Notes under the pieces: model-generated
What the model was told of the DNA's origin: nothing
Databases searched by the model: none
Seen by the model: only the letters and a program-made list of their open reading frames with translations
Program-made: the position numbers and the translations under genes
Shown: positions 833 to 28,344 of the stretch, in pieces
Position numbering within the stretch: the first letter of the stretch is position 1
How the letters are laid out: each line of letters starts with the position of its first letter
From: a virus
IMG/VR virus record: IMGVR_UViG_3300023435_000687
Location: 1 to 28,406 of that record
DNA: 28,406 bases
Direction: 5' to 3' (one strand)

Positions 833-1684
833 TCAAACGTAGATGACTTGGCAGTCTTCGTCTACAAGTGTGTCTCCATAGTTATCAACAATAAACTCCG
901 TTGCTGGAGTGTTTAGTGACAAAAAACATCTCCTGTCCTGAATGTTTCGCTCTTGAAGCACCGTAGTACCCTTGCCGACCAGAACGGCTGCTAGAGCCAT
1001 TTTAGGTGTATCGACTGTAGGCTCTACAACATCGATAGTAATATCGTTGGACGCTATTCCAGGAGCCACTCCGACAGTATTCTTGATTGGATCAAGATAC
1101 ACTAAGTCAAATCTTGTACCTGCAGCCGGGAGTACGAATGTAGCTGTCAGACCCCCCAAGAACACTTTCTTTGTTCCTAGGTAGGTATAGTCACCGGGCT
1201 GAACGTATAGCTGCATTGATGCTCCGTTCGGGTCTTCGCCTACACGTAACTCCACGATAGCTCTATCGAAGACATTCAGGGCATCCTTACCAATATTCAA
1301 CTGATGCCATTCATGAGCCGCAGCATGATTGCCAACGATTTCTTCGGCTCTCTCCTTTGAGGTAAGTATTGCATCCATGCTTGTTCCGACAGCACCTAAA
1401 GTGCCCAACACAATGTATGGCGCTGTACCACCAACTCGCTCAGGGCTGACTTGTACCATTACATCTAGGTTATGTGACCACCCAGTCATAATGTTGAACG
1501 CAGCTACTACTTGGTTTACCTGATAATGACTTGAGCCCCCAAACAATCGTACCCAACAGTAATTGGTTCGTGATGTGCTAATAATGCCACCACGAGTGCC
1601 GATCTTGCCCCTGACAATCTGCTGCCTAGCAATATAATCTGTCTGGACTCCTTCAATTTTTTGAATCGCATCTAATATACTCAT
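833..1684 (-). CDS. Tail-tip/baseplate-associated structural protein
   Basis: The 283-residue start is chosen at the ATG at 1684, whose ATGA overlaps the stop of the upstream tail-tip gene. A TTG at 1696 in the same frame would add four residues and is less likely. The C-terminal half contains FDLVYLD, a Pro/Thr-containing stretch, an ALAAVLVGKGTTV segment and an NIQDRR motif. This order (FDLVxLD, then AxVxVxxGxT, then IxDxR) occurs in many phage baseplate and tail-tip proteins as I recall them. No enzymatic motif is visible. Tight coupling to the 1278-residue tip protein suggests assembly in the same complex. The family assignment is inferred. Confidence 0.65.
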   Translation of the reverse strand: MSILDAIQKIEGVQTDYIARQQIVRGKIGTRGGIISTSRTNYCWVRLFGGSSHYQVNQVVAAFNIMTGWSHNLDVMVQVSPERVGGTAPYIVLGTLGAVGTSMDAILTSKERAEEIVGNHAAAHEWHQLNIGKDALNVFDRAIVELRVGEDPNGASMQLYVQPGDYTYLGTKKVFLGGLTATFVLPAAGTRFDLVYLDPIKNTVGVAPGIASNDITIDVVEPTVDTPKMALAAVLVGKGTTVLQERNIQDRRCFLSLNTPATEFIVDNYGDTLVDEDCQVIYV

Positions 1685-4600
1685 GCTGTACCCCAATCAA
1701 GTAACCCACACACGGGCATGAGGTTTTCTGGTAAGCCTTCGTTAATGCGAGCCCAGGTACCGCCACTGTTTAGCGACAGCAGTACGGAAGCATTGTATGG
1801 ACTTAGAACCATTAGTATATTTGCAGTTCTTAAGTGGCGAATAAGTTTTGGAGGAGTATCTGGCCAAACTGTAGTATTATCAGATCCCTTAACGGGCAGA
1901 CCACTGCTCCAGGCATTCCACTCAGAAGAATTTAGAGTACGAAGTAATGTGCTTGAAATTTCAGAAAAGGCCCAGGGACTCCCCAAGGCCATTATATCAT
2001 TCTCATCAGTAGCGAGCCAGCTTAAGTCATACATCTCCTCCTGAGCTCCCCACATCGGGGAAGCGGGATTTTCGATTTGTTCTAATGTACGTCCCCCATC
2101 CGAGGATTTCCATACGCCAAATTCTGGATTATCAACCCACCACTGATAGACAGCGTTACTACAATAGCCAAGCCAGACAACATCATTGTTTGACAGGGGA
2201 GACAGGTAGCTAATGAAAGGTACAAATATACGTCCTGGGACATGCATGACATTTCTATAATGACTATTACCAGGGACAAAATCGCAAATCGCGGAGCCGT
2301 CGGCTTCGCAGATAAATATTCGACATGCTTTGTACAAATCTGGATCACCAGAAGCAAGGTGTCCACCGGAGCTAAAATAGATTCTAGGTGGTGGTGGGGC
2401 CCAATACGGACCACTGCTAATCTGCAAACTGGGGTACTCTGCTTCTATTCTCCCAGCCTGACCACCAGTTACGGTTACTCGAACAGATTCGACAAATGCT
2501 TGAGCTTGGTCTACCCAAGTCATAGTATCAACAATATACGCATCGAATAAGAGATATCTAGCATAGACCCTCTCTACGCCCACTTTTGTCCAAACCGTTC
2601 TCCACGCTACCGCTCCCGCTTCTATCCAGAAAGCGTCGGCACCCTCAGTATCCCAGGCTGTAGATACCCCATAACCAAGACTATCGCGATTATACAGCAT
2701 AAACCCGAGATCTTTTAGTGGGTTTGGATTATCTGGAGCATGCTTAAATGTCATCTCAGGCACTATTTTGAATCCCGCCTCATGTCCACCTTTTACCTCA
2801 ATCGTTTCCAAATAAAACATAGCACCAAGATCAACTACAAAGTTTATCAGCCGTTCAGTTGCACCTAATACAGGATGTGTCCCTGCTCCTACCGTAGCTG
2901 TCCAGGTAAGCGGTTTAGATCCATCATCGTGGAAAGCTCTTACCTCTGTTCCATTTTCGTGGGCCACATCAACATAATTTGCACCAGAATTTATGGTAAG
3001 CCCGCCCATAGCAACTTCTGAATTAGTGGGTCTATAATATGTAGAACCGTCATAATAAGTAACAGGAAGTGGAAGCCATGTCCAAGTATCTCCGGCATCT
3101 AGTGTAACGCCTAGGTAGGCATCCATTTGAGCTGCATTTCTGTATGCGTAAACTACATACCGTTCTGGCAGTGTAGTGTCAGCTACTATCTTATCCAGAC
3201 GGCCAGCTTCTGCACTATCGCCATAGGCATCCCAATTATCGAGTTGTAGCCAACCTGTCGGAGCTGTGGGGTAGGTAACATTCCACTTCGTCCAAGTCCA
3301 AGCATTTTCGTCATCGAGTACTCCTTGAAATACGCCCTGAGACGTTGCAATGACTACATCTGTTAATCTACCAAGTTCTTGTCTATGTGGATTGAAGCAC
3401 ATGTCAAAAACCTGCAACGGGTCTGTAGTGCTAAAAGGCGAACTGCGAGGAGTTATTGATTCCCAGTAGCCTAGGCCCGCCTGGCGACTATAGACTCCAT
3501 TCTCGGTGCCTAGGTATGCAATACCGTTCCAGCCGGGAATCTTCCATGACGGAGTTCCTGGCGGAGCAGGGATTTCCGGTGGAGACGTGTAGTCTCCAGT
3601 TACCCCAGTAGTACCTGTAGCTTCAGTGTCGATTTTAGTGTCGGTAAGCAACGTAGAGGCCTTGGAGTCGTACTTAAGCTCAACAGAGCGTACAATTAGT
3701 TTTTCATCCATCCATTCGATGCCGCGCTTGTTGTCGGCAGCAGCTACGTCCATTGTAAGCCATGCCTGCGGAGCGATGTCGAGGAAGCTAAAATTGCCCT
3801 GCAGCTTGATGGGTATGCCTTTCCACGTATTTGCTTCATCGAGTACATATCCCGCCGTAAAGTTAGCCTCACTTAGCTCTTCAAATGCAAGACCCTTCTT
3901 GAACAAGTCTTGACCGTCCTGTTTTGGGCACCTGCCGGGAGCTTGTCCAATATAAGCTGTCCCCGTTCGACCATCCCAGTGTACTCCTGCGACCTCGACA
4001 AATTTTACAGGAGCAACTTGTTTGCGAGGGAAGGTTATACCTTCCCGTAAGTGACTATCCTTGTCAAGTTTCATTAGTTCGACAATGCTGCTACGCTGGC
4101 CACCAATCCGGCACTGCACATCGCGGTCTATGAAGATAGAGCTTTGTTTGTCGGATAGAACGCGGCCTATGCAGACCGAGGCAGAGTAGTCATCAAGTTG
4201 ACGATAGATACTTGCCGAGGGAAAGTCTTGAGCAGCAATGTTAGTATTGTCGCCTAGGATGTTAATGTCAGTCATCTGCATCAGTGTAGTATGCCACTTA
4301 ATGAGGTAATAGGCAGCACGGTCAATCTGCAGTCGATACATTTTATACCAATCGGTGCATTCTGTACCGTCGACGGTGCCCGGAGTGTTTCTTGCATCTT
4401 CCACCGTACAAGGGAAAGCATTCCGCGCTTTCATTATCCCGTCTAGGGTGACAATTTCGAATTCAACGTAGCGTTGACCTTTTTGGTCGAAGTCTACTTT
4501 GGTAGATTCTTCTACAATCCAACCACGTAACTTAATGTTTTCTCGGCCAGGGTAACCACCAATTGACTGTTTGGTGTCACCATACCACTCCTCCGCAAAG

Positions 4601-5517
4601 AGAATGATTTCTGCTCCATCAGGAAACTCGTCTGTGTCTGCATCGCCGAAGACACGTATCTTTCCCGTCCATCCACCGGATTGCCAGTCGCCCCTCAAAG
4701 ATAGAAGCTGAAAGTCTGTATACGGCGAACCTACACCCGTTCGCGGGAGAATATGAATGTACCTGTAGCCCGTATGCGTCTTAGCCGCTGCTCCGCCACC
4801 CTGATCGTTTGCCACTTCCAGCGAGGCTAAGTATCGCCCCGTTGCGTTATACGCGATGGTATGTGGAGCGGCCTCGGTACCAAGCGTTGCCTTGTCGGCA
4901 GGAGCACCCCCAGCGAATTGCCAGTCACATGTTGCAGACAGGCCCATGTCCCCGGAACCGTAGTATCCGACTGCTATTGCGTAGCTCCACTCCCCAACGA
5001 AGTCTACGTCTACAGTAGCCTCATCTAGGAACGCTATAGCTGGCGGCCCCATAATAGCAACTGGAGCTAGTTGTCGAGTCTGGCCATGCTTGGTATTTAC
5101 GAACGCTTCGTCGAAGTCTTTGTACCAGTAATCTTTCCCCCCGGAATAGACAATTCGGGGAAAGACTGACCACAATTCAAAAATTGGAAGGATGGAAACA
5201 TATTTGTCATTGCTCCAAGTAACGTCAGGATTTTCTGCTACTGTTATAGTACCAGTAGCCCCACCAGAACAAGACTTGACTCTCACCTTAGCAAGATCAC
5301 GTCCACCCGGAGTGGAGCCGAGAATCAAAGTCATTCCAGACAACACACCAGAGCCACTGCCATTATCGTAGTTGAATGTGTGCGTGTCCACATTATAGAA
5401 GCCGTCTTCTTGGCATGTAAAAATAGGGTCGGGATTATCAACATAGAGGTACATTTTTGTCTTTTGAGGATGAGTTTCTAGTAATGTTTTTTCGGCCTCA
5501 GTCAAAGCTCTGCGCAT
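1681..5517 (-). CDS. Large multidomain tail-tip protein, putative receptor binding
   Basis: This 1278-residue protein starts at an ATG overlapping the preceding stop by one base (TAATG). The first 640 residues look like a tip or hub region and include a PKD/Ig-like segment at about 190-250 (CDWQFAGG... YLASLEV). A Pro-rich linker follows at about 643-655. After it come segments with Asp-box-like motifs: LDAGDTWTW near 806, SSDGGRT at about 1138-1144 and LNSGGTW near 1250, as seen in sialidase-type beta-propellers. Between them, about 870-1000 resembles a discoidin (F5/8 type C) carbohydrate-binding domain (VVDLG... ARYLLFDA). I see no clear catalytic set, so binding of surface glycans is more likely than cleavage. 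Domain names are inferred from motifs only. Confidence 0.75.
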   Translation of the reverse strand: MRRALTEAEKTLLETHPQKTKMYLYVDNPDPIFTCQEDGFYNVDTHTFNYDNGSGSGVLSGMTLILGSTPGGRDLAKVRVKSCSGGATGTITVAENPDVTWSNDKYVSILPIFELWSVFPRIVYSGGKDYWYKDFDEAFVNTKHGQTRQLAPVAIMGPPAIAFLDEATVDVDFVGEWSYAIAVGYYGSGDMGLSATCDWQFAGGAPADKATLGTEAAPHTIAYNATGRYLASLEVANDQGGGAAAKTHTGYRYIHILPRTGVGSPYTDFQLLSLRGDWQSGGWTGKIRVFGDADTDEFPDGAEIILFAEEWYGDTKQSIGGYPGRENIKLRGWIVEESTKVDFDQKGQRYVEFEIVTLDGIMKARNAFPCTVEDARNTPGTVDGTECTDWYKMYRLQIDRAAYYLIKWHTTLMQMTDINILGDNTNIAAQDFPSASIYRQLDDYSASVCIGRVLSDKQSSIFIDRDVQCRIGGQRSSIVELMKLDKDSHLREGITFPRKQVAPVKFVEVAGVHWDGRTGTAYIGQAPGRCPKQDGQDLFKKGLAFEELSEANFTAGYVLDEANTWKGIPIKLQGNFSFLDIAPQAWLTMDVAAADNKRGIEWMDEKLIVRSVELKYDSKASTLLTDTKIDTEATGTTGVTGDYTSPPEIPAPPGTPSWKIPGWNGIAYLGTENGVYSRQAGLGYWESITPRSSPFSTTDPLQVFDMCFNPHRQELGRLTDVVIATSQGVFQGVLDDENAWTWTKWNVTYPTAPTGWLQLDNWDAYGDSAEAGRLDKIVADTTLPERYVVYAYRNAAQMDAYLGVTLDAGDTWTWLPLPVTYYDGSTYYRPTNSEVAMGGLTINSGANYVDVAHENGTEVRAFHDDGSKPLTWTATVGAGTHPVLGATERLINFVVDLGAMFYLETIEVKGGHEAGFKIVPEMTFKHAPDNPNPLKDLGFMLYNRDSLGYGVSTAWDTEGADAFWIEAGAVAWRTVWTKVGVERVYARYLLFDAYIVDTMTWVDQAQAFVESVRVTVTGGQAGRIEAEYPSLQISSGPYWAPPPPRIYFSSGGHLASGDPDLYKACRIFICEADGSAICDFVPGNSHYRNVMHVPGRIFVPFISYLSPLSNNDVVWLGYCSNAVYQWWVDNPEFGVWKSSDGGRTLEQIENPASPMWGAQEEMYDLSWLATDENDIMALGSPWAFSEISSTLLRTLNSSEWNAWSSGLPVKGSDNTTVWPDTPPKLIRHLRTANILMVLSPYNASVLLSLNSGGTWARINEGLPENLMPVCGLLDWGTA

Positions 5518-16416: not shown

Positions 16417-18345
16417 TTACCAAGGCCTCCATACCGCATCTACCGAGCGTCCATGTCGAATCAACGTTCCCCTAACCGGCAGACCAGGACCGTGGATCGC
16501 AAAGTAGATATGTTGGTTACTACTATAGTAGTCGCTCTCAACTACGTTAAAGCTCTTGAGTATGTCGAGCCACTGCTCCTTCCGCATCAGTCGTTCGGTG
16601 CCTGTCTTAACGGGATAGTACACTGACGGAACGGAGAACACAAACCACTCACTGAGCTTAAGTACTGTCATCAGGATACGTCGTATGTCTCCGTTGGAGT
16701 AGTGCTCCAGCATTCCCTGACTAGTACACATGAGGTTCTCTCGTACCATTCTATATCTGTTTAGAAAGTTGGCACGGAGGTCGAGAACGTCGAGCCCTAC
16801 TAGCACAGGGGGGTGGGGTAATCCTTCGAACAGTAGTTGACAACTCGCAAAGACAGACGGATCCTTGTCAATCCCAATGACCCGAAGTCCTCTGTCCGCA
16901 AACATCTTCGTCGTAACCCCGCTGCCAACCCCGAGATCGAGAATGGTCGCATTGGGCGGCTTGAGTCTAACTACTGCCCGTACAAAGGGGGCATGGACCC
17001 TTGAGAGCTCCTTAACTGTTCCGGGGTCGTAGCTTGAGTACGTTTCCGTATTGGGCTGTGTGAGTACTCGGCGGTGGTCAACTGTAGCGAATGGGTTCTC
17101 AAGTGCGTCGAAGGCTGTCTTAAAGTCTGCGGCGACTCGATCGCCACCCCAAGTATTCGAGAACCAGATAGCCCCAGCGGCAGCCCGTGCGTTAGCCTCC
17201 TCTCGGTGATTGTAGATAGACCGTAGAACGTCTACTGCGTAATCCCAATCCGGGATGCTCCACGTACCACCAAGTCTGCACTCCTCAACTCGAGAGTCTG
17301 GAACGGGCCAGTCGTACTTTGGGTCACAGACAGCTAGGTGCCCAGTGTTCTCTGACAGAATCGTCGGAACCCCCATAGCTATTGCTTCGCGAGCCGGCAT
17401 TCCAAACCCTTCTCCCTTAGACAGGATCAGTGCACAGTCAGCAGAGTCTACGAGCTCACGCATCTGCTGTCTGGTCCACCTCTGGTCACTGTAGATCTTG
17501 ATCCGGGGATCATCCAGCTCGGGAAGCTGGTGGTGATCGTAGCCAAAGAACCCCGTGCGCGTCTTGAATACCATTTCAACATCTGGGTACTTATCGATCG
17601 GAAACGCCCTCTTGAATACCTCAACGGTTTCTACGGGCGATTTGCGCGCTGTTAATATTCCGAAGCTGATGATCCTAAACTTATCCTTAGCCTTACGAGG
17701 AGTTGGTACTGTGCCTCTCGGTGCGCAGAAGATCGGGTCGATTGCTAGAGTGGTTACGTAGATCGGCCGTCGGACGAACTCAGAGAATACATCCTTGCTA
17801 TACTGTGTAGGCACGAACAGGGTGTCGACATCGTTGCAGGAGTGCAACCATTCTGGGTGGGTCTCCAGAGGATCCGAAGCTTCGTACATTGTCAGACCGA
17901 TCTTGTATGGCGTCGGCAGCTTCTCGAACTCGCTTGGAGTCGCCATACACAACCCCACAAGGTGGGGCACGTCGATGGGCTTCTCGAGTAGACTAATAGT
18001 CTCGGGTAGCAGGCCCTCTTTTATTAGGAACCACAAGTGTCTTGCGGATAGCTTTACTCCGTGTGAGGTAAGGCAGTGAACAATGTTCTCCGCCGCAGTA
18101 GCATAGCCATCTCCCACAGAGAACGGAGACATCCAGAGGAGGTTATACGCTTCCTCCGAGTCAACCCAAACTCGCCTGTTGTCTGGGATAGCAGACTCAT
18201 CCAGCTCGGCCATTCCACGAGCCTTGAGCCACAGTGCAGTATCCCAAGGCACAGGCTCCGACCATACCCCGGGCATTAGAGTTAGGTGAATGTTCGACAT
18301 TACCTGCACCTTGCCGGTAACGTTCTTTACACTGACAGCATCCAT
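16417..18345 (-). CDS. Glycosyltransferase (GT4-type)-methyltransferase fusion
   Basis: The start is set at the ATG at 18345, which has GGAGGT four bases upstream. A longer frame reaching 18513 would overlap the capsid gene and has no such site. The 642-residue protein has a GT-B glycosyltransferase half. Its N-lobe includes AAENIVHCLTSHG near 58-70, its C-lobe begins at about 218 (FRIISFGILTARKSP), and the EGFGMPARE motif (E-x7-E) lies near 309-320, as in family GT4. The second half is a class I SAM methyltransferase with LDLGVGSGV near 467-477 and VIGIDKD. It lies between the major capsid gene and the connector genes, so glycosylation and methylation of a virion protein or its glycan is a reasonable guess. 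The substrate is unknown. Confidence 0.85.
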   Translation of the reverse strand: MDAVSVKNVTGKVQVMSNIHLTLMPGVWSEPVPWDTALWLKARGMAELDESAIPDNRRVWVDSEEAYNLLWMSPFSVGDGYATAAENIVHCLTSHGVKLSARHLWFLIKEGLLPETISLLEKPIDVPHLVGLCMATPSEFEKLPTPYKIGLTMYEASDPLETHPEWLHSCNDVDTLFVPTQYSKDVFSEFVRRPIYVTTLAIDPIFCAPRGTVPTPRKAKDKFRIISFGILTARKSPVETVEVFKRAFPIDKYPDVEMVFKTRTGFFGYDHHQLPELDDPRIKIYSDQRWTRQQMRELVDSADCALILSKGEGFGMPAREAIAMGVPTILSENTGHLAVCDPKYDWPVPDSRVEECRLGGTWSIPDWDYAVDVLRSIYNHREEANARAAAGAIWFSNTWGGDRVAADFKTAFDALENPFATVDHRRVLTQPNTETYSSYDPGTVKELSRVHAPFVRAVVRLKPPNATILDLGVGSGVTTKMFADRGLRVIGIDKDPSVFASCQLLFEGLPHPPVLVGLDVLDLRANFLNRYRMVRENLMCTSQGMLEHYSNGDIRRILMTVLKLSEWFVFSVPSVYYPVKTGTERLMRKEQWLDILKSFNVVESDYYSSNQHIYFAIHGPGLPVRGTLIRHGRSVDAVWRPW

Positions 18346-18354
18346 AGCACCTCC
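18343..18354 (-). promoter_or_regulatory. Strong SD that sets the glycosyltransferase start
   Basis: GGAGGTGCT-ATG on the coding strand places a perfect SD next to the ATG at 18345. It lies outside the capsid gene and argues against the longer overlapping frame. Confidence 0.8.
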
Positions 18355-18366
18355 GTTCGTGTAGCC

Positions 18367-18400
18367 CCGGGGTAGGACTAGACCAGCAGTCCGACCCCGG
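18367..18400 (-). terminator. Strong hairpin after the major capsid gene
   Basis: Arms 18367-18379 and 18388-18400 pair at 12 of 13 positions with one mismatch (18374/18393), and the loop is eight bases. The GC-rich stem lies in the 89-base gap between the capsid stop and the glycosyltransferase SD. No T-run follows, so partial termination, attenuation or mRNA 3'-end protection are all possible. Confidence 0.65.
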
Positions 18401-18434
18401 AGCCATGACAGGTCGATTAGGGCGATTAGGTCAG

Positions 18435-19616
18435 TTAGGTTATCGTAACCGTCCCAAACAACTCTGCCACAACCATCTTCTTCGCGTTTCTGGTCCGCAC
18501 GTTTCGAGACCACTTATCCGTGTTCAGGTAAGCACCCGGAAGAGTGCTATCGTCGTACGGGAGAAACTCTGCATACACAAGTGGCATTGCTGCCAAAGGA
18601 ATATACGGTGCGAAGATGTACCCTGCATCTGTCTGCGACCTGGGGTACACACCCATAATTGCTTTACTGGCGTTGATGTACACCGAGGTGTACACATCCC
18701 ATAAGCCATTCAGGGTTCCGATAAGCTCAACACCTACCGTTGAGGGGTTCAGGTCCGGCCGGGCACGTGGCTCAGCCTTGTAGTCTGAAGCCTTGCGAAG
18801 CCACTTGATGACGTTTCTTCCGGCCACAAGGTAATCAGCCTTGCGGTAACGGTTCGCGAAGATCAGATCCTCAGTGTCGATGAACGCGTGGACCAACGTT
18901 TCAGCCCACTCCTTCGTCGTGTAGCCAGCTGGCACCGTACTTGACCAGTTGGTATTTCCGGCTCCTGCACCATTGAGTACTTCATTGAGGCATCGTTCTT
19001 CAAGCTCGCGCGTGATTTCAGACGCCATCTGATCAATGAGTTCGGCCTCAACGTCGATGCCTAAGGCACCACGTGCGTCCTCCATCACCTCAGTTGACCA
19101 GGAAGCACCTAGGATATCCTTGGTGGCCGTGAACGTCTCCGATGTGATGACCATCTTGAGACGTTTCGGGACTCCGTTCTCGATGTTGTAGGCGTAAGGG
19201 CTGTCGGGAACAGTGACAGATGAGTCCGAATCGTCCTCCCTTTGGAAGTCCTGGTAGAAGACCCGGCCCACACCGCCTGACATTGCTGGCAGAGGCTGTA
19301 CCGATGCAATCTTCATCAGGAACATCTCCGGGAAGACTTTTCTTATGATGGGCAATGCGTACTTCTGGGGCAGAGTCAGGTCAGTAGTCAACGTAGCCTC
19401 AAGGGCTGTTCCCTGAGCTGAGAATATCGCCTGGTTCTCGAAGATCTGGGCCATTGCCGGCCAGTAGCTCTTGGGGATCGGCTTTAGCCCATACGCCTCC
19501 CCGTCCAAGTACCATTCCCACTTCTTTACTAGGGCCTCACGCTCCATACGTTGCTGCTTCTGCTGCATCGTACCCTCGCCGAGGTTGTCTAGCATCTCTT
19601 GGTTAAATGCGTTCAT
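18435..19616 (-). CDS. Major capsid protein, T4 gp23-like
   Basis: This 393-residue protein has GGAGG 7 bases before the ATG at 19616. It follows the protease-scaffold gene, the standard place for the capsid protein. Motifs recalled from the T4 gp23 family appear in order: LPIIRKVFPEMFLMKIASVQ at about 88-107, WSTEVMEDARGALGIDVEAEL at about 173-193, and YIFAPYIPL near 330-340. It is about 120 residues shorter than T4 gp23, so an insertion domain may be missing. The N-terminal 50-70 residues are charged and helical and could be removed by the prohead protease, as in T4. A GC-rich hairpin follows the gene. Confidence 0.85.
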   Translation of the reverse strand: MNAFNQEMLDNLGEGTMQQKQQRMEREALVKKWEWYLDGEAYGLKPIPKSYWPAMAQIFENQAIFSAQGTALEATLTTDLTLPQKYALPIIRKVFPEMFLMKIASVQPLPAMSGGVGRVFYQDFQREDDSDSSVTVPDSPYAYNIENGVPKRLKMVITSETFTATKDILGASWSTEVMEDARGALGIDVEAELIDQMASEITRELEERCLNEVLNGAGAGNTNWSSTVPAGYTTKEWAETLVHAFIDTEDLIFANRYRKADYLVAGRNVIKWLRKASDYKAEPRARPDLNPSTVGVELIGTLNGLWDVYTSVYINASKAIMGVYPRSQTDAGYIFAPYIPLAAMPLVYAEFLPYDDSTLPGAYLNTDKWSRNVRTRNAKKMVVAELFGTVTIT

Positions 19617-20858: not shown

Positions 20859-22275
20859 TGTCAACTACCTCCTGTGCTTTCTGCTTTACGCGGTCTGCGA
20901 CCGCGGTCCACTGTGCTGGTGTCATCTGCAGGAACTTTGCTGCGATATACTCATCGTCAACCACTCCGAGGCTCACAAGAGTCTGAGCTGCTGAGGCAAA
21001 CGCTTGGAGCGCCTGTGCCTCCTCAACCACATCCAATCGTGAAGGATTGGGCCACTCAATTACGTACTGCACGTCGCGAGGATTGATCCCCTTTAACAGA
21101 AGTGTGAGTGCTACAAAGTGGTGAACGAAACCACTATTTACTGACTGAACTCTGCGAATCGTACGAGCAAAGCGTCTATCCTGGTACGACAGAGTCGCTT
21201 TGGCGTTGATATCTCTTTCCAACCCCAGATACGCTTTCGGCACCCGCATCGAAGTAAGGATCTTATTCTGGTAATACTCTACGGGATCCAGATGAGTGAA
21301 CCCAGTACTCGCGGTGTCGAGAACACTGACGTCGGTCAGACCTTCGTGGATCTGGCCACTGAAGTCGTGGAACCCTTTTCCGATAAACAAGTCCTTTACC
21401 ACCGACAGTTCCTCGTCTCCTAGAACCCCGGATACTACCTTCTTCTGGGTGAGGCCCCGCTTGAACCTCTGGATATAGGCAGTAGCCTCCTTTTCGGTCT
21501 TGCCCGTAACGTCAAGCTTGAATAGCAGCCGAGCAAAAGCCCGAGTTAGCCAGTTAACACACAGAGCTTCCTCCATTGCCTTCAGCTTCCGCCACGAGTG
21601 TCGAGCCGTGTAGCACATCGACCGCCCATACGGACTACTTCCTCGTCGGTTCCACCTAATATGCTCGACCTGCCACGCACGGAACCCCGCGATAAATTTG
21701 TTAGTTCGCGGGACGTACTGCTCAAACGCAAAGTTGCCTTCGGTGCTGCCCCGAAGCAATAAACCTACTTCGTCCTCATTCCGCACCATCGAGTTGGGCG
21801 GCATGTGCATCACCCGAACAAGCTGGAGGTTGGGTCCAAGTATGTACTGCTGGAAGTTGTCTCCATACAACAGAGTGTCCCGAGTAATCCCATACATCTT
21901 CTCGGCTAGTCGGCACTGTGCAATCGAATCCTCTACGTACTTCTGCACACGTTTAGACACTCCACTTTCCCATACGACCCGAAACGACTCCTCAGCACCC
22001 ATCTCCGAGTTCACAGCTTCATCGGCCAACACGTCTAGTGCCACTGCAACCTCGTCGATGGTGTCCTCCATCTCCTCAGCGTCGTCGTAGATCTCTACCC
22101 GCTCCGTCGAGATGTCGAACCAGGCAGAAGTTAAAGCGGACATACTCGCATCGGCTATTCCAACAGTAGTTGTTTGGGTCTGCTTGGGTACCTGAGTACT
22201 AAACGACTTCGTGAGGAGTCGTACAAACTTTGCCAGGCCCCTCGGAGCTTCTACAATGCCGCCATGGGATTCCAC
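20809..22275 (-). CDS. Portal protein
   Basis: This 488-residue protein starts at a GTG at 22275 with GGAGGAG five bases upstream, overlapping the terminase end by 25 bases. It lies between terminase and protease, as in most tailed phages. Features are IADASMSALTSAWFDIS near the start, a helix-rich wing, a GLERDINAKATLSYQDRRF segment near 355-375 that resembles the T4 gp20-type portal region before the DNA channel, and an acidic C-terminus (DDTDDDDTSGD). The portal forms the dodecameric DNA entry ring at one vertex. Family placement with gp20-like portals is inferred from motif likeness and from the gp23-like capsid nearby. Confidence 0.82.
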   Translation of the reverse strand: MESHGGIVEAPRGLAKFVRLLTKSFSTQVPKQTQTTTVGIADASMSALTSAWFDISTERVEIYDDAEEMEDTIDEVAVALDVLADEAVNSEMGAEESFRVVWESGVSKRVQKYVEDSIAQCRLAEKMYGITRDTLLYGDNFQQYILGPNLQLVRVMHMPPNSMVRNEDEVGLLLRGSTEGNFAFEQYVPRTNKFIAGFRAWQVEHIRWNRRGSSPYGRSMCYTARHSWRKLKAMEEALCVNWLTRAFARLLFKLDVTGKTEKEATAYIQRFKRGLTQKKVVSGVLGDEELSVVKDLFIGKGFHDFSGQIHEGLTDVSVLDTASTGFTHLDPVEYYQNKILTSMRVPKAYLGLERDINAKATLSYQDRRFARTIRRVQSVNSGFVHHFVALTLLLKGINPRDVQYVIEWPNPSRLDVVEEAQALQAFASAAQTLVSLGVVDDEYIAAKFLQMTPAQWTAVADRVKQKAQEVVDNGQPTDDTDDDDTSGD

Positions 22276-25265
22276 AGTATCTCCTCCAATTCTTCCCTCG
22301 ATAGTGGCCTCGACGTATCTAAACCTGAAAACTCACCTACTAACTGCTCTTCAGGTATCTCGTCACGTTCACGCTGCTGAGCCAGGAGCTCCATTCGAAC
22401 CCAGTCGCCGCTGCTTCCAGCAACAGGAGCCTGCTCCGCACCAAACTGAAAAGTATCCGCGATCGTTACCTCTGTTGTAGCCAGTGCCTCCCATTGTTGA
22501 GCCAGACGCCAGCAACCCTCAAGTGCATCCAATCCGTCATCGTGCGGGAGCAGCGGGGCCTGTTCCATCTCCTCGTACAGAAGATCGAAGCTCCCAGTTG
22601 CCCTGTCGGGGAACGCTAAGTAGTCATTCTCGATGTCGGGCTGCAGAGACTGAATCCGCATTTCCTTTCCGCCCCGGTGCGACTGTTGTATTGGCACTAC
22701 GGGAAGGTATGCACCCTGCTCACGAGACTCCTTAGCCGACTGCGATGCGAAGAATGCCTGAAACTGAACGGCCTCGATGCCCCAGCGAGCTACCCGATAA
22801 CGTCTGCCCCATCTAATCTGGTCCTGAAGTAACGTATCCGGGGTCCGCCTCTTCATATCTGCCTCAATTACGAACCCCAGCCCCGAAGGAGCTCTTGCAA
22901 TAATAATAATAGCGCTGTAGTCAGCTGCTTGAGTCTTACCCAATGATGGATCGGTGAACGCAAAGAGCTTACAGTCGGACAGTTTAACAGGCAAGTGTTC
23001 AAAGTGTGGAGTCAATACAACCTCGTCACCTATCCACTCCCGTGAATACGCCGCCCACCTTGGGAAGAGCCGATCCTCTGGAGCCACCGGAATGTTCTGG
23101 AGTTCCATCGAGAACGACGCCGAACCTTCGGATGCCTTCATGACCATGAGTTGGTAGTACGGATAAGCCTCCGGCCAAGCACTTACTGCACCGGCATCCA
23201 TTTCCACCTTGCGCTCTAGGTAGAACGCATAGGCATCCTTCTCCTTATTAGGGTTCTCTATACTAGTGAGTATCTTTCGCCACTCGTTCCACAACTCAGG
23301 GTTGTCGGCCCACCGTGCAACCGCTCGATAGGTAGTGTGCTGGAACATCGGGTTTAGCACACATTTCCGTACCAAACACTCTGAGTGGATAAAGTTTCCA
23401 ATCACTAGAATCTTTGTGTTTTCCCACCCAGCACGAACCACGGAACGGTTAAACCAGTTCTGGATGTCCCGACGCATCGTCGAACTCTGGACACCCTTAA
23501 CGTCTTCTGGATCGTCAACGATTATCAGATCCGGCCTCCATTGCCGGAACTTTCGACCGCGAATCTTCATTCGGGACCCCAGGGCAACTACTTTTACGTA
23601 TGTGGTCGTTTCGATATCATCTTCTTGCCACTTATTGCCCCGGAGGTCCCCAAAATCTTCAGCGATACGTTCGTTATTCTCGAACTCGTACTTCAAGGTC
23701 GCAAGGTGACCCTTTGCTTGTGGAAAGGAGTCACTTATGATTGGTATGAAGTGCCGCTTCTCGTAGCAAACACACCACGCAGGAAGCCCTAACACAGCCC
23801 AAGAAGTATTATGAACGACGAAGCCTTCTGCTACATAGTTATGATCCGGATGCTCGACCTCGATGTCGTATGTGTGAACCTCACCCTCATACTCAATGCT
23901 TACTACTGAGTCCCAAAAAACGTCGCTATCTACTAGAGTCTGAAGCTTATCTGATTTATCTAACGCAGCTACCTTTGCTACTCGAGTCCTTGACGAGTCC
24001 CTCCGATCGGGTACTACATGGAACCCGTGCTTCTTCTTGAATGCACCTTGACGCGTATTCATCAACTTATGCCACCCATAAGGCACGCAGTCTAGTTTGG
24101 CACCGCGTCCGTCGGTCCCTAGAACCTCAATGTTCATGAGCTGGGCAAACTCTTCACTTGTCTGATTTACAATAACTCTCCAAGCTCTCCCGAATCTACC
24201 CTCTGTAGGCGTCTCGTATACTTGCGAAACCACACCAAAGCGGCCTAGCAACCGCTGCACGTCTCGTACAAGGCCCTCAGACATCGAACAGTACTCATGA
24301 CAAGTACCCGAACCTCTTGTAGTAATGTGTCCATCACCCTTCCACAGGGCTATCAAGAACGTTTCTACATCTTCGATAGGCCAACCAAATACCTCTCCGG
24401 GTATCCTCTTGGTGTACGAGTTTGAACCGTACAGTCCGTACCTACGAGCCCAGTCCCGCGCACCTGAACAGTAATAAGTGATCCCGTCTTCACGTTTGCC
24501 AATCCGTCTAACTCCCCAACCCCTAGACTCTGCAGCTTTCCTAAAATCAGTTACGCTGTCAGAATCTACTTGGGTAAAGGTAACGCCTCCCCCCGAGAAG
24601 CCTCCCTCAGAGATCATCCAGCCTAGAAGCTTGGGATCCACAGAATGATCCGGCTTCAATACTGCCTCAGGAGTCCAGCTACGGACCGCAGCAACCCTAT
24701 CCTGCACGGTAAGGTTTTGTAAGTTGCGCCTCTTGGGTAGGCCCTTCTCAAGTACCGTAAACCCATGCTCGCCTGTTGTAGCAATTCTACGGCCTGAACG
24801 TGTACGCAGCCACCAAACCTCCTTGACACCTTGGTCGTATACAGCAACTACACTAGTTGGTACGAGCTTCATACTCTCGTAGTCCAAACACATAACTCGA
24901 TCGCCTGGTAGTATGTACTGAACCTCAACCTCGGTCCCGTCACTCATTAGGACCAGAGTTTCTGCGACGTCGCACTTTCCGTGCCCCCTAGGCCACGCTA
25001 TTGCGAGGTTCTGTCGGCCCGGGGTCTCTAGCATCTCCTCTACGGTCTTGGTAAATCCCTTGTGCATCGCAGCCACTGGCTTCGTGAAGTGGTTCCGTAG
25101 GTAGAACTGGCAGAAGAACTGGAGATCCAACTCCCCCAACTGCTTACGCAGCTCCGGCGCACTTAGTGAGACGTCCATCCACCCACTTGCAACGAGCTGC
25201 TCCTCAGTGAACCTCCGCTGCAACGTGTCAGCTATCAGTTGCGTATCGTACGAGTCAAGCTTCAT
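22251..25265 (-). CDS. terL: Terminase large subunit with intein
   Basis: The 1004-residue precursor would yield a 615-residue terminase after removal of a 389-residue intein. The ATG at 25265 directly follows the TAA of the radical SAM gene. The N-extein ends in AWPRGHGK (residues 90-97), the Walker A loop, and the C-extein resumes with Thr-Ser, completing GK-T/S. Walker B is PDLIIVDDPED near 578-588. The nuclease domain has FAFTDPSLG (D772) and HDDGLDALEG (D909, D910, D913), the metal-binding acidic residues. The enzyme packages and cuts DNA at the portal. No small terminase is recognised in the window. Confidence 0.93.
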   Translation of the reverse strand: MKLDSYDTQLIADTLQRRFTEEQLVASGWMDVSLSAPELRKQLGELDLQFFCQFYLRNHFTKPVAAMHKGFTKTVEEMLETPGRQNLAIAWPRGHGKCDVAETLVLMSDGTEVEVQYILPGDRVMCLDYESMKLVPTSVVAVYDQGVKEVWWLRTRSGRRIATTGEHGFTVLEKGLPKRRNLQNLTVQDRVAAVRSWTPEAVLKPDHSVDPKLLGWMISEGGFSGGGVTFTQVDSDSVTDFRKAAESRGWGVRRIGKREDGITYYCSGARDWARRYGLYGSNSYTKRIPGEVFGWPIEDVETFLIALWKGDGHITTRGSGTCHEYCSMSEGLVRDVQRLLGRFGVVSQVYETPTEGRFGRAWRVIVNQTSEEFAQLMNIEVLGTDGRGAKLDCVPYGWHKLMNTRQGAFKKKHGFHVVPDRRDSSRTRVAKVAALDKSDKLQTLVDSDVFWDSVVSIEYEGEVHTYDIEVEHPDHNYVAEGFVVHNTSWAVLGLPAWCVCYEKRHFIPIISDSFPQAKGHLATLKYEFENNERIAEDFGDLRGNKWQEDDIETTTYVKVVALGSRMKIRGRKFRQWRPDLIIVDDPEDVKGVQSSTMRRDIQNWFNRSVVRAGWENTKILVIGNFIHSECLVRKCVLNPMFQHTTYRAVARWADNPELWNEWRKILTSIENPNKEKDAYAFYLERKVEMDAGAVSAWPEAYPYYQLMVMKASEGSASFSMELQNIPVAPEDRLFPRWAAYSREWIGDEVVLTPHFEHLPVKLSDCKLFAFTDPSLGKTQAADYSAIIIIARAPSGLGFVIEADMKRRTPDTLLQDQIRWGRRYRVARWGIEAVQFQAFFASQSAKESREQGAYLPVVPIQQSHRGGKEMRIQSLQPDIENDYLAFPDRATGSFDLLYEEMEQAPLLPHDDGLDALEGCWRLAQQWEALATTEVTIADTFQFGAEQAPVAGSSGDWVRMELLAQQRERDEIPEEQLVGEFSGLDTSRPLSREELEEILWNPMAAL
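23808..24974 (-). mobile_element. LAGLIDADG intein in terL Walker A
   Basis: This covers residues 98-486 of the precursor. The intein starts with Cys98 (CDVAETLVLMSDG, block A) and has a TTGEHGF block B at about 163-169. Two LAGLIDADG-type helices lie at LLGWMISEGG (213-222) and FLIALWKGDG (303-312). It ends with HTYDIEVEHPDHNYVAEG then FVVHN (blocks F and G). The C-terminal HN and the +1 Thr are the standard splicing residues. Both homing motifs keep an acidic residue (E220, D311), so the endonuclease may be active. Codon boundaries were checked against the DNA at both ends. Confidence 0.93.
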
Positions 25266-26114
25266 TTACATCATCACCGAACATGTACTACATAATGGGA
25301 TCTCAGCCTTCCGTCCCGCGTTGTGAAGCTCCCTAACGTGACTAAGTACCGGACCTCTCCAAATCTCTTCCATACTCTGCTCGTGAAGGTTACCCATTGA
25401 CGTCTCCGGCCCACTGTCGATGCAACACATTCCTACAGAGCCGTCACACCAGATGTACATACCGGCAAACGGCTGAGCACAGGGGTCAGAGGAAGCGCAC
25501 CCTGTGTAACACCTAGGCTCGCCGTCAAATTGCTCCGTCCTCGAGTCACACTCACGATGGGTAACCTCGTCAACTCGGCCTGTCCAGTACTTAAAGAACT
25601 CGGGTACCTCATGTCGATTCCGATTAGTAAACGTCATATGTGCTCGTGTAGTTACCGGGCTTCCTGCAGCCTCGTTCAGTTCAAGGAAGCGTAGGATGTT
25701 TGCAATTACAGCTGCCAACTTGAGTGGAGGCCTTGCAGCTTCGTAGGTCTCAGCGGTAACCCCGTCAACGGAGAACGTAATGTGAGCAATTCCCAGGTCG
25801 ATCAGTATCTGTGCCATCTCTTCGCCCAGTAGGGCTGCATTTGTATACAGTACTACTTGGGTAGTTGGGAGCCTATCTCGAATGTAGCTAATTAGCGACT
25901 CGAGGTGGGGCCATACTAGGGGCTCCGCGTATCCATAGGGATGGAACACCTCCACTGGGCGCCCTACACACTGGTCTATAATGCCCTTTGCGAACTCAAG
26001 CGTCATGTCCTCACGCTTGAGGTACTGACTTGGGCATATAAGACAGTGTGCGTTACACCGAACACTTGTTTCGAGTTGTACAACTCCCGGAAAGTCTTTG
26101 GCGACTCGTTTCAC
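25266..26114 (-). CDS. Radical SAM/SPASM domain protein
   Basis: The 282-residue protein starts at a GTG at 26114 whose GTGA overlaps the upstream stop. The motif CNAHCLIC (C20, C24, C27) is the CxxxCxxC site for the SAM-binding 4Fe-4S cluster. A PYGYAEPL segment near 59-66 matches the GE-type SAM-contact motif in degenerate form. The C-terminal third has Cys-rich CYTGCASSDPCAQPF, WCDGSVGMCCID and PLCSTC, the layout of a SPASM auxiliary-cluster domain. Such proteins modify peptides or sugars by radical chemistry. Neighbouring glycosyltransferases and a methyltransferase suggest a role in glycan or virion-protein modification, but the substrate is not evident. Confidence 0.88.
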   Translation of the reverse strand: MKRVAKDFPGVVQLETSVRCNAHCLICPSQYLKREDMTLEFAKGIIDQCVGRPVEVFHPYGYAEPLVWPHLESLISYIRDRLPTTQVVLYTNAALLGEEMAQILIDLGIAHITFSVDGVTAETYEAARPPLKLAAVIANILRFLELNEAAGSPVTTRAHMTFTNRNRHEVPEFFKYWTGRVDEVTHRECDSRTEQFDGEPRCYTGCASSDPCAQPFAGMYIWCDGSVGMCCIDSGPETSMGNLHEQSMEEIWRGPVLSHVRELHNAGRKAEIPLCSTCSVMM

Positions 26115-26977
26115 TTACATTGTCTCCGTGAAAACTTCTGCATCTGTTTAACTTGACTCTCATCGATCCCTAGAGTTCGAGCGATATACTCAGTATCACC
26201 CCCAGCCATCTCTGCAAACGTCTCGATCCCTAACTCGTCGGCTAGCTGCTTACTTAGTTTCCTACCGAACCTCGTGAGTGGGTGACCTTGTACTTCGAGG
26301 GAGATTCCTGCGTTCTTGAGGACCTCTACGATCTCGGGTCGCATCACCATCCCGGCCTCCCAGGCCGCTCTACGAGTCGAGTTGGGATCCGCAGCGATGA
26401 TCCGACGGTAGTGGGCGTTTCTGCGGCGAACCTTGGTTAGATAGTCAGCTGAAGAGTTCTGGTGTATATAGATGTACTCTGGATGGCTCGTTGCCTTTGT
26501 GAGACCCTCCGGCCCCGCATGGGGGTGCTCAGGATAGTGAACACTTCCGGCGTTCTTAAAGATCCTCCACACCGGTACCTTCCGTATAGCCTTCCCGTCC
26601 ACATATCCATCCTGAGTCACAACGATCGCGTCGGCTTCATCAGCATCTGCCTCGGCAATGAGCTTGTCGCGAAGGTCGCTGAGCAGCTCGTCGCTCAACT
26701 TCTCATCGGGGTCGAACACAGCTACCCACGTCCCGTAAGGGATCACATTGTGAAGTGCCCACTCCCGTTGCGGGAAAGGGTTATGCTCACCCGGCCGCTC
26801 GAAGTAGCGTACATTTGAGTACGCTCCCGCAATGTTGAGGGTATCATCTGTGCACTTACCATCGTGTACCACAACCACATCGTCGAAGTACTTCGCGTGG
26901 TGTTCTAGAAACCCCTTGATGTGTTTCCCCTCGTTTCTTACAGCCACCAATAGTGTCACTGAAGCTTTCTCACTCAC
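26111..26977 (-). CDS. GT-A (family 2-like) glycosyltransferase
   Basis: This 288-residue protein starts at a GTG at 26977 with GAGGAG upstream, overlapping the methyltransferase stop. The N-terminus has SVTLLVAVRNEGKHIKGFL, VVVVHDGKCTDDT (nucleotide-sugar binding) and VAVFDPDEKL, whose DPD is the expected metal-binding DxD. The C-terminal third is helical and has ARTLGIDESQVKQMQKFSRR, a possible helix-turn-helix-like tail. It probably transfers a sugar from a nucleotide-sugar donor in the host cytoplasm. It shares VVVVHDG(x)C(x)DDT with the glycosyltransferase at 27652-28344, which suggests the two are paralogues. The acceptor is unknown. Confidence 0.85.
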   Translation of the reverse strand: MSEKASVTLLVAVRNEGKHIKGFLEHHAKYFDDVVVVHDGKCTDDTLNIAGAYSNVRYFERPGEHNPFPQREWALHNVIPYGTWVAVFDPDEKLSDELLSDLRDKLIAEADADEADAIVVTQDGYVDGKAIRKVPVWRIFKNAGSVHYPEHPHAGPEGLTKATSHPEYIYIHQNSSADYLTKVRRRNAHYRRIIAADPNSTRRAAWEAGMVMRPEIVEVLKNAGISLEVQGHPLTRFGRKLSKQLADELGIETFAEMAGGDTEYIARTLGIDESQVKQMQKFSRRQCK

Positions 26978-27671
26978 TTGTCTGCTCCTCTTCTAGTATA
27001 GGTCCGTGTACCCAGAATCGGTTCTTCTGTAGCTCCTCAGGTACTCCGACCCAATCATAAGTCCAAAAGTTATTGCCAAATGCATGACCGACGGCCCGAC
27101 CCACGCCAGAACTCGAGTTGTAATAGTCATCGCCAAAGATCGTACCCCCCGAGGCAAGAAGCGGCTGGGAGATCGTAATGTCTTCGTATGCAGACTCCTC
27201 AGTGTGTTCTGCGTCAACGTAGATGAGACTAGCTTCTACGTCGAGCTCCTTCAGAGCTGCTACTCCATGGATAGACATAAGTGGTAGCGGAGTGATGTAA
27301 TCCCGGACACCGTACTCCATTACATTCGAGAGAAAGAAGTAGTACGCCTGTGGATAGCCGTTCCGCAGCGCTAAACACTCATGTGCGCCTCCGCGCCACA
27401 TAACATTGCCGGTTAGCCACGTATCGATGCAGACGATCTCACAGTCGAGGCCCAGCTCCTTAACCGCCATGGCCATCGTTATTGCAGAGCCGCCGTACCA
27501 AGTACCTAATTCAACAATGACACTAGGTCGAATCTGCTCGACCAACCTCCGGAACAGCGACGAGTCCCCGCCACCGGGGGAGTGGCCCAGACCGTACCTG
27601 TGCGGAACCGGTACAAAGCCCTCATATGGATCAACCCTGTGCAATGCATCCCTAATCTTCGGCATATTCAT
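26970..27671 (-). CDS. Class I SAM-dependent methyltransferase (Methyltransf_24 / CmcI-like)
   Basis: This is a 233-residue protein. The ATG at 27671 lies within the end of the preceding glycosyltransferase gene, after GGAGAGG. Motif I is VIVELGTWYGGSA near 50-62, motif II CIDTW near 82-86, and SLIYVDAEHTEESAYEDI near 148-165 gives the post-motif acidic and His residues. GGTIFGDDYYN follows. This pattern is typical of the Methyltransf_24 and cephalosporin hydroxylase-like group often found beside glycosyltransferases. It likely methylates a sugar or small acceptor. It is coupled by overlap to both neighbours. Confidence 0.8.
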   Translation of the reverse strand: MNMPKIRDALHRVDPYEGFVPVPHRYGLGHSPGGGDSSLFRRLVEQIRPSVIVELGTWYGGSAITMAMAVKELGLDCEIVCIDTWLTGNVMWRGGAHECLALRNGYPQAYYFFLSNVMEYGVRDYITPLPLMSIHGVAALKELDVEASLIYVDAEHTEESAYEDITISQPLLASGGTIFGDDYYNSSSGVGRAVGHAFGNNFWTYDWVGVPEELQKNRFWVHGPILEEEQTSE

Positions 27672-28344
27672 CCTCTCCGGTATTATACTCTACACGTAGA
27701 AACTCCGAAATGATTTCGGGACGTGCCGCATACCTTTCCTGCAGCCGCTTCTGGACGTTAGCGTACCGGCGGCTTTTCTCCCTAGCAGCATCGCGATCTC
27801 CGTGAGGCCCGTCCGTGCTCGAGTAATGTGTGAACTGGACCCCGCGTAGATTCAGTACCCGTCCTGGGCCTCCCGGCTGGATATGAATGATGTCCGACAG
27901 CACAGTCGACTCACGCTTAAAGAGCCGCACGTGCAGGGATACCTCCTGAGGCTCCAGGTAATACTCAAGGCGCCTAATCGCAACCCTGTCGCAGCGCTTC
28001 CTGACCGCGCGATCAATTGTCTGCTGAAGGTTCTCAAGGAACTTTGGCGCGAACACCTCATCTACGTCTCCCATAAGGACCCAGTCACTGGTACACACCG
28101 TCAAGCCACGCTTACGCTGCGGCTCACAATAACCCTCATAGGGAGCAGTAATGACCGTAGCTCCACACTCCAGAGCCACATCGACCGTGTCATCCTCACA
28201 CTCGCCATCGTGTACGACTACGACCTCGTCGACGTAGCTCCACACCTCGGCAATACGATCCGCAAGTTTCTGCGCGTCGTGGCGAACTGCGATTAGAAAC
28301 GAAGCTGTCCGATTACTCACAACTACGGCCTCCGTCACGCTCAT
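27652..28344 (-). CDS. GT-A (family 2-like) glycosyltransferase
   Basis: This 230-residue protein has ASFLIAVRHDAQKL, then VDEVVVVHDGECEDDTVDVA, CEPQRKRGL and MGDVDEVF, whose DVD is the metal-binding DxD. These are the core motifs of a short GT-A fold transferase. The ATG at 28344 overlaps the upstream stop (ATGA) but has little SD. A GTG nine codons in has GGAGG about 8 bases upstream and is an alternative start. It is related to the enzyme at 26111-26977, and the two may add successive sugars. The substrate is not known. Confidence 0.83.
   Translation of the reverse strand: MSVTEAVVVSNRTASFLIAVRHDAQKLADRIAEVWSYVDEVVVVHDGECEDDTVDVALECGATVITAPYEGYCEPQRKRGLTVCTSDWVLMGDVDEVFAPKFLENLQQTIDRAVRKRCDRVAIRRLEYYLEPQEVSLHVRLFKRESTVLSDIIHIQPGGPGRVLNLRGVQFTHYSSTDGPHGDRDAAREKSRRYANVQKRLQERYAARPEIISEFLRVEYNTGEDEYAED

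Follow-up and report, generated by a model that had tools for sequence, protein, structure and literature searches.

The large terminase gene (terL) of an uncultured virus is interrupted within its ATP-binding loop by an intein, which raises the question of whether the insert is an ordinary selfish element or a device that times DNA packaging. The gene lies in a window of 28,406 nucleotides, the whole stretch of DNA analysed here, which derives from an IMG/VR virus record. Its reading frame begins with ATG, contains no internal stop and codes for the large terminase TerL (Table 1). As judged from its sequence, the insert is very probably a class-1 intein that was acquired sporadically at the Lys/Thr site of the P-loop and is bifunctional and probably active.

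Table 1. Coordinates of the terL precursor, its exteins and the intein within the window
Feature	Position	Strand	Basis
terL precursor ORF, 1004 aa	22251..25265	-	ORF list, Pfam, PHROG
N-extein, 97 aa; C-terminal end is the P-loop half WPRGHGK	24975..25265	-	
Walker A N-terminal part, R93-K97 (RGHGK); Lys97 is the -1 residue	24975..24989	-	
Intein, 389 aa, Cys1 to Asn389 (precursor residues 98-486); class-1 splicing blocks and LAGLIDADG endonuclease	23808..24974	-	
Splicing block B, RIATTGEHGF (T67, H70)	24759..24788	-	
First LAGLIDADG motif, LLGWMISEGG (acidic E123)	24600..24629	-	
Second LAGLIDADG motif, LIALWKGDGH (acidic D214)	24327..24356	-	
Splicing blocks F and G, HTYDIEVEHPDHNYVAEGFVVHN (D370, H378, H388, N389)	23808..23876	-	
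Thr487, +1 residue and Walker A Thr	23805..23807	-	
C-extein, 518 aa; remaining ATPase (Walker B DLIIVDD) and RNase H-like nuclease (TDPS, GIEAVQ, HDDGLDAL)	22251..23807	-	

The host protein has the composition of a large terminase, namely a P-loop ATPase joined to an RNase H-like nuclease with its catalytic acids (D772, E831, D910/D913). The precursor matches the TerL family PHROG 38 (4.5e-80), and the C-extein contains a match to Pfam Terminase_6C (1e-8). The Walker B and nuclease motifs of the exteins are intact, and precursor residues D584/D585/E587, D772, E831 and D910/D913 are invariant in comparison with BalMu-1, Mushu and DMS3. By homology, this is a divergent host terminase related to the TerLs of Mu-like phages (BalMu-1, DMS3). 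A sequence search of the PDB with the C-extein gave no matches, nor did a DNA-level search of phage records with the terL region.

The intein sits exactly between Lys97 and Thr487 of the P-loop. This placement, proposed in the earlier note, is borne out by joining the exteins to a chain of 615 aa and aligning it with an intein-free TerL homologue (L028) that aligns from residue 1. The alignment runs without a gap over the junction, AWPRGHGK/TSWAVLGLPAW against AWPRSGGK/TTWVNFGLPLW, with 38% identity and an E-value of 9e-127. Together with the empty site of 77 relatives, it locates the insertion between the Walker A Lys and Thr/Ser, which is a TerL1-a-type site. The boundaries, intein length and spliced length proposed earlier agree exactly with the ORF translation. 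Since a single Thr serves both as the Walker A residue and as the +1 nucleophile, the P-loop is present only after ligation. The ATPase should therefore hardly be workable before excision, as had also been claimed; this is a structural consequence that published work on P-loop inteins also accepts. Identical DNA, both junctions included, extends over 6.4 and 12.2 kb in two further IMG/VR contigs from different metagenomes, and the presence of an identical sequence in three contigs is a strong argument against an assembly join.

The insert carries the elements of a class-1 intein. Its nucleophile, Cys1, is precursor residue 98; T67 and H70 of the block B TxxH motif are invariant in a three-row alignment; and blocks F and G retain D370 and H378, followed by H388-N389 and the +1 Thr487. 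These hallmark positions are shared with other inteins, and the profile matches lie far above chance level. The Hint domain is recognized by PF14890 Intein_splicing (68–71 bits against a cut-off of 35.8; E-value 1e-18) and the C-terminus by TIGR01443 intein_Cterm (26.2 bits against 15.6), while TIGR01445 intein_Nterm (22.1 bits) and PF01079 Hint (18.1 bits) score below their own cut-offs. An NCBIfam model of intein-bearing DnaB also matches across the intein (2e-48). A single-sequence AlphaFold model of the intein, with a mean pLDDT of 38.5, was too poor for use. A rival reading is a non-splicing, dead insertion or an assembly chimera that leaves terL broken. Such a reading is highly improbable, given that all catalytic residues are intact, that the frame has no stops, that the extein motifs are preserved and that the three contigs agree.

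The homing part of the element is preserved in its key positions. Two LAGLIDADG motifs are present in the sequence, and both keep an acidic residue (E123 and D214), as the earlier note had observed; the first has Glu where Asp is commoner. Pfam LAGLIDADG_3 matches above its cut-off (45–48 bits, 1e-11) over the region of the second motif only. An intein that still splices but has lost its endonuclease activity, as in a degenerate homing cycle, is a possible though less likely reading. The Glu of the first motif is consistent with it, as is the isolation of the element, which has no close relatives at the P-loop or any other site in the viral and genome collections. On the other hand, both acidic positions are occupied, the frame is intact across 389 codons and the second motif exceeds the Pfam cut-off. 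Taken together, the intact residues suggest that the window intein is probably active in both splicing and homing.

The distribution of the insert argues for a mobile element. Among 78 non-self TerL relatives from IMG/VR, a set that includes near-copy loci, the P-loop could be read in 77, all of which have Lys directly followed by Ser or Thr. The comparison with intein-free relatives at the same site that the earlier note had proposed showed an empty site in all readable cases. These relatives are about 35–42% identical to the window TerL, and no closer intein-free sister was found among them. Within the sampled family, the insert is, by this comparison, confined to this virus. Its absence from the 77 readable relatives marks it as a sporadic mobile element and not a conserved part of the terminase family. 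Codon usage gives no sign of recent foreign origin, since the RSCU correlation of the intein with the phage genes (0.54) is close to that of the exteins (0.52) and to the mean of random 389-codon blocks (0.54).

The same distribution bears on the suggestion that splicing acts as a timing switch for packaging, in which the intein would delay or gate TerL activation in response to redox state, temperature or DNA. P-loop inteins elsewhere do splice conditionally, including those of RadA of Pyrococcus (PMC5790916) and DnaBi1 of M. smegmatis (PMC6195587), and the window intein contains five non-catalytic cysteines. However, its absence from all readable family relatives indicates that packaging in this family does not need the intein. 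Five phage TerL inteins have been tested, and all spliced readily: ligated extein was the main product, and precursor was readily visible for only one (PMC5050341). Residues -3 to -1 before the intein are HGK, so that position -3 has no Cys, and no sensor or other conditional feature was identified in the sequence. A conditional-splicing switch is accordingly improbable, and the proposal was not supported here; nor is the idea new, as it had been put forward for the TerL of Mic1 (PMC7156551). A co-opted intein, whose slow or signal-dependent splicing in the native terminase exteins times the onset of packaging, is slightly less probable still. We infer that the element has no regulatory role and is an ordinary selfish element.

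As a sporadic, bifunctional class-1 intein, the element would act in a simple sequence of steps. The terL precursor would be translated as a single chain, in which Cys1 would begin an N-S acyl shift and the +1 Thr, itself the Walker A Thr, would take over the N-extein. Cyclization of Asn389 would then set free the terminase, 615 aa long and with its GHGKT P-loop intact. The excised LAGLIDADG domain would be expected to cleave terL alleles that lack the intein, at the conserved codons of the P-loop, allowing the element to be copied in. Its location in the ATP-binding loop would also shield it, because imprecise loss kills the motor.

The window contains further features outside terL. Directly upstream, positions 25266-28344 on the minus strand encode a radical SAM/SPASM protein, two family-2 glycosyltransferases and a Methyltransf_24 methyltransferase (Pfam), an unusual modification cassette adjoining the packaging genes. 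Within the head gene module, a 698-aa ORF (16417-18513, minus strand) combines a GT4-type glycosyltransferase part with a C-terminal methyltransferase-like part, and its start overlaps the major head protein gene at that gene's end. A 1278-aa ORF close to the tape measure gene (1681-5517, minus strand), which had no match in Pfam and PHROG searches, may code for a tail tip protein or a fibre protein.

Relatives of the intein itself are distant. The TerL inteins of Perkons (25%) and KLEB27-3 (24.5%) are its best full-length matches in phage records. In the plasmid collection, the best match is the DnaB intein of Nocardia farcinica at an H4-type site (30% full-length identity, E-value 6e-24). 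Viral contigs contain no close relative except the identical contigs, and the sole match among genome contigs is C-terminal, in an HNH-type intein of a thyX-like gene of Okeania (L093:3600-4120). The C-terminal 33 residues of this intein are 67% identical to those of the window intein (EVEHPDHN...), and the remainder is unrelated. In a tree of 16 inteins, the TerL inteins do not form one clade; the nearest rows by tree path are actinobacterial DnaB inteins, a placement without support. This tree was also considered as a means of choosing between a TerL-intein and a DnaB-intein origin, and it places the window intein firmly with neither group. A DnaB-like helicase on a plasmid of Euzebya pacifica (L095) has both a P-loop intein and a second intein at the H4-type site. 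Several P-loop inteins lack Cys1, with Leu in YC1 TerL (L109), Ala in the helicases of Vibrio phage YC (L112) and JN03 (L113), Pro in Bajun TerL (L005) and Asp in Cp1R7A-A1 TerL (L009); for the helicase intein of Vibrio phage YC, the N-terminal boundary was placed by hand. These first residues suggest that non-class-1 splicing may occur at the same P-loop site.

With the window, a divergent terminase related to Mu-like phage TerLs joins the proteins that inteins have entered at the P-loop Lys/Thr site. This fits the view that, in one phage lineage after another, homing targets those codons of packaging and helicase ATPases that are most conserved, and no current view is changed by it. If splicing proved conditional, the window intein would offer a case in which post-translational timing of DNA packaging could be tested.

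Inteins are known to insert in P-loops, as the earlier note stated, and the Lys/Thr site has already been described in other phages. The TerL1-a inteins of mycobacteriophages are inserted between the invariant P-loop Lys and Thr, termed a 'classic' P-loop insertion (Kelley et al. 2016, PMC5050341); related phage TerL inteins b, c, e, f and g splice, and b and c cut the empty allele (PMC5050341). The window intein shares with TerL1-a this site in a phage large terminase. The TerL1-a hosts are Terminase_1-type TerLs of actinophages, whereas the window host is a PHROG 38 / Terminase_6C TerL of an uncultured virus. The equivalent P-loop site is occupied in the TerLs of six phages: Perkons, KLEB27-3, P1201, Cp1R7A-A1, Bajun and YC1. 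Among these, the inteins of Perkons, KLEB27-3 and Corynebacterium phage P1201 have the same Lys/Thr site, Cys1, HN end and +1 Thr as the window, but they are only 24–28% identical to the window intein and belong to other terminase lineages. The best match in the plasmid collection and the nearest, unsupported tree neighbours lie among the inteins of Nocardia farcinica DnaB (site a) and Euzebya DnaB (P-loop and site a), although these reside in another host protein, and the Nocardia intein occupies the H4-type site instead of the P-loop. The phiCbK TerL intein lies between K130 and S472 (PMC3556154); phiCbK-like TerLs, including that of Bajun, carry their intein in the N-terminal ATPase part as in the window, and the phiCbK and Bajun inteins lie at Lys/Ser of the same loop and begin with Pro where the window intein has Cys. 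The TerL of cyanophage Mic1, the terminase inteins of which had been assigned a possible role in packaging control (PMC7156551), shares with the window TerL an intein in the N-terminal ATPase part, but carries two inteins. The window case thus differs from known ones in host lineage and intein sequence, not in kind.
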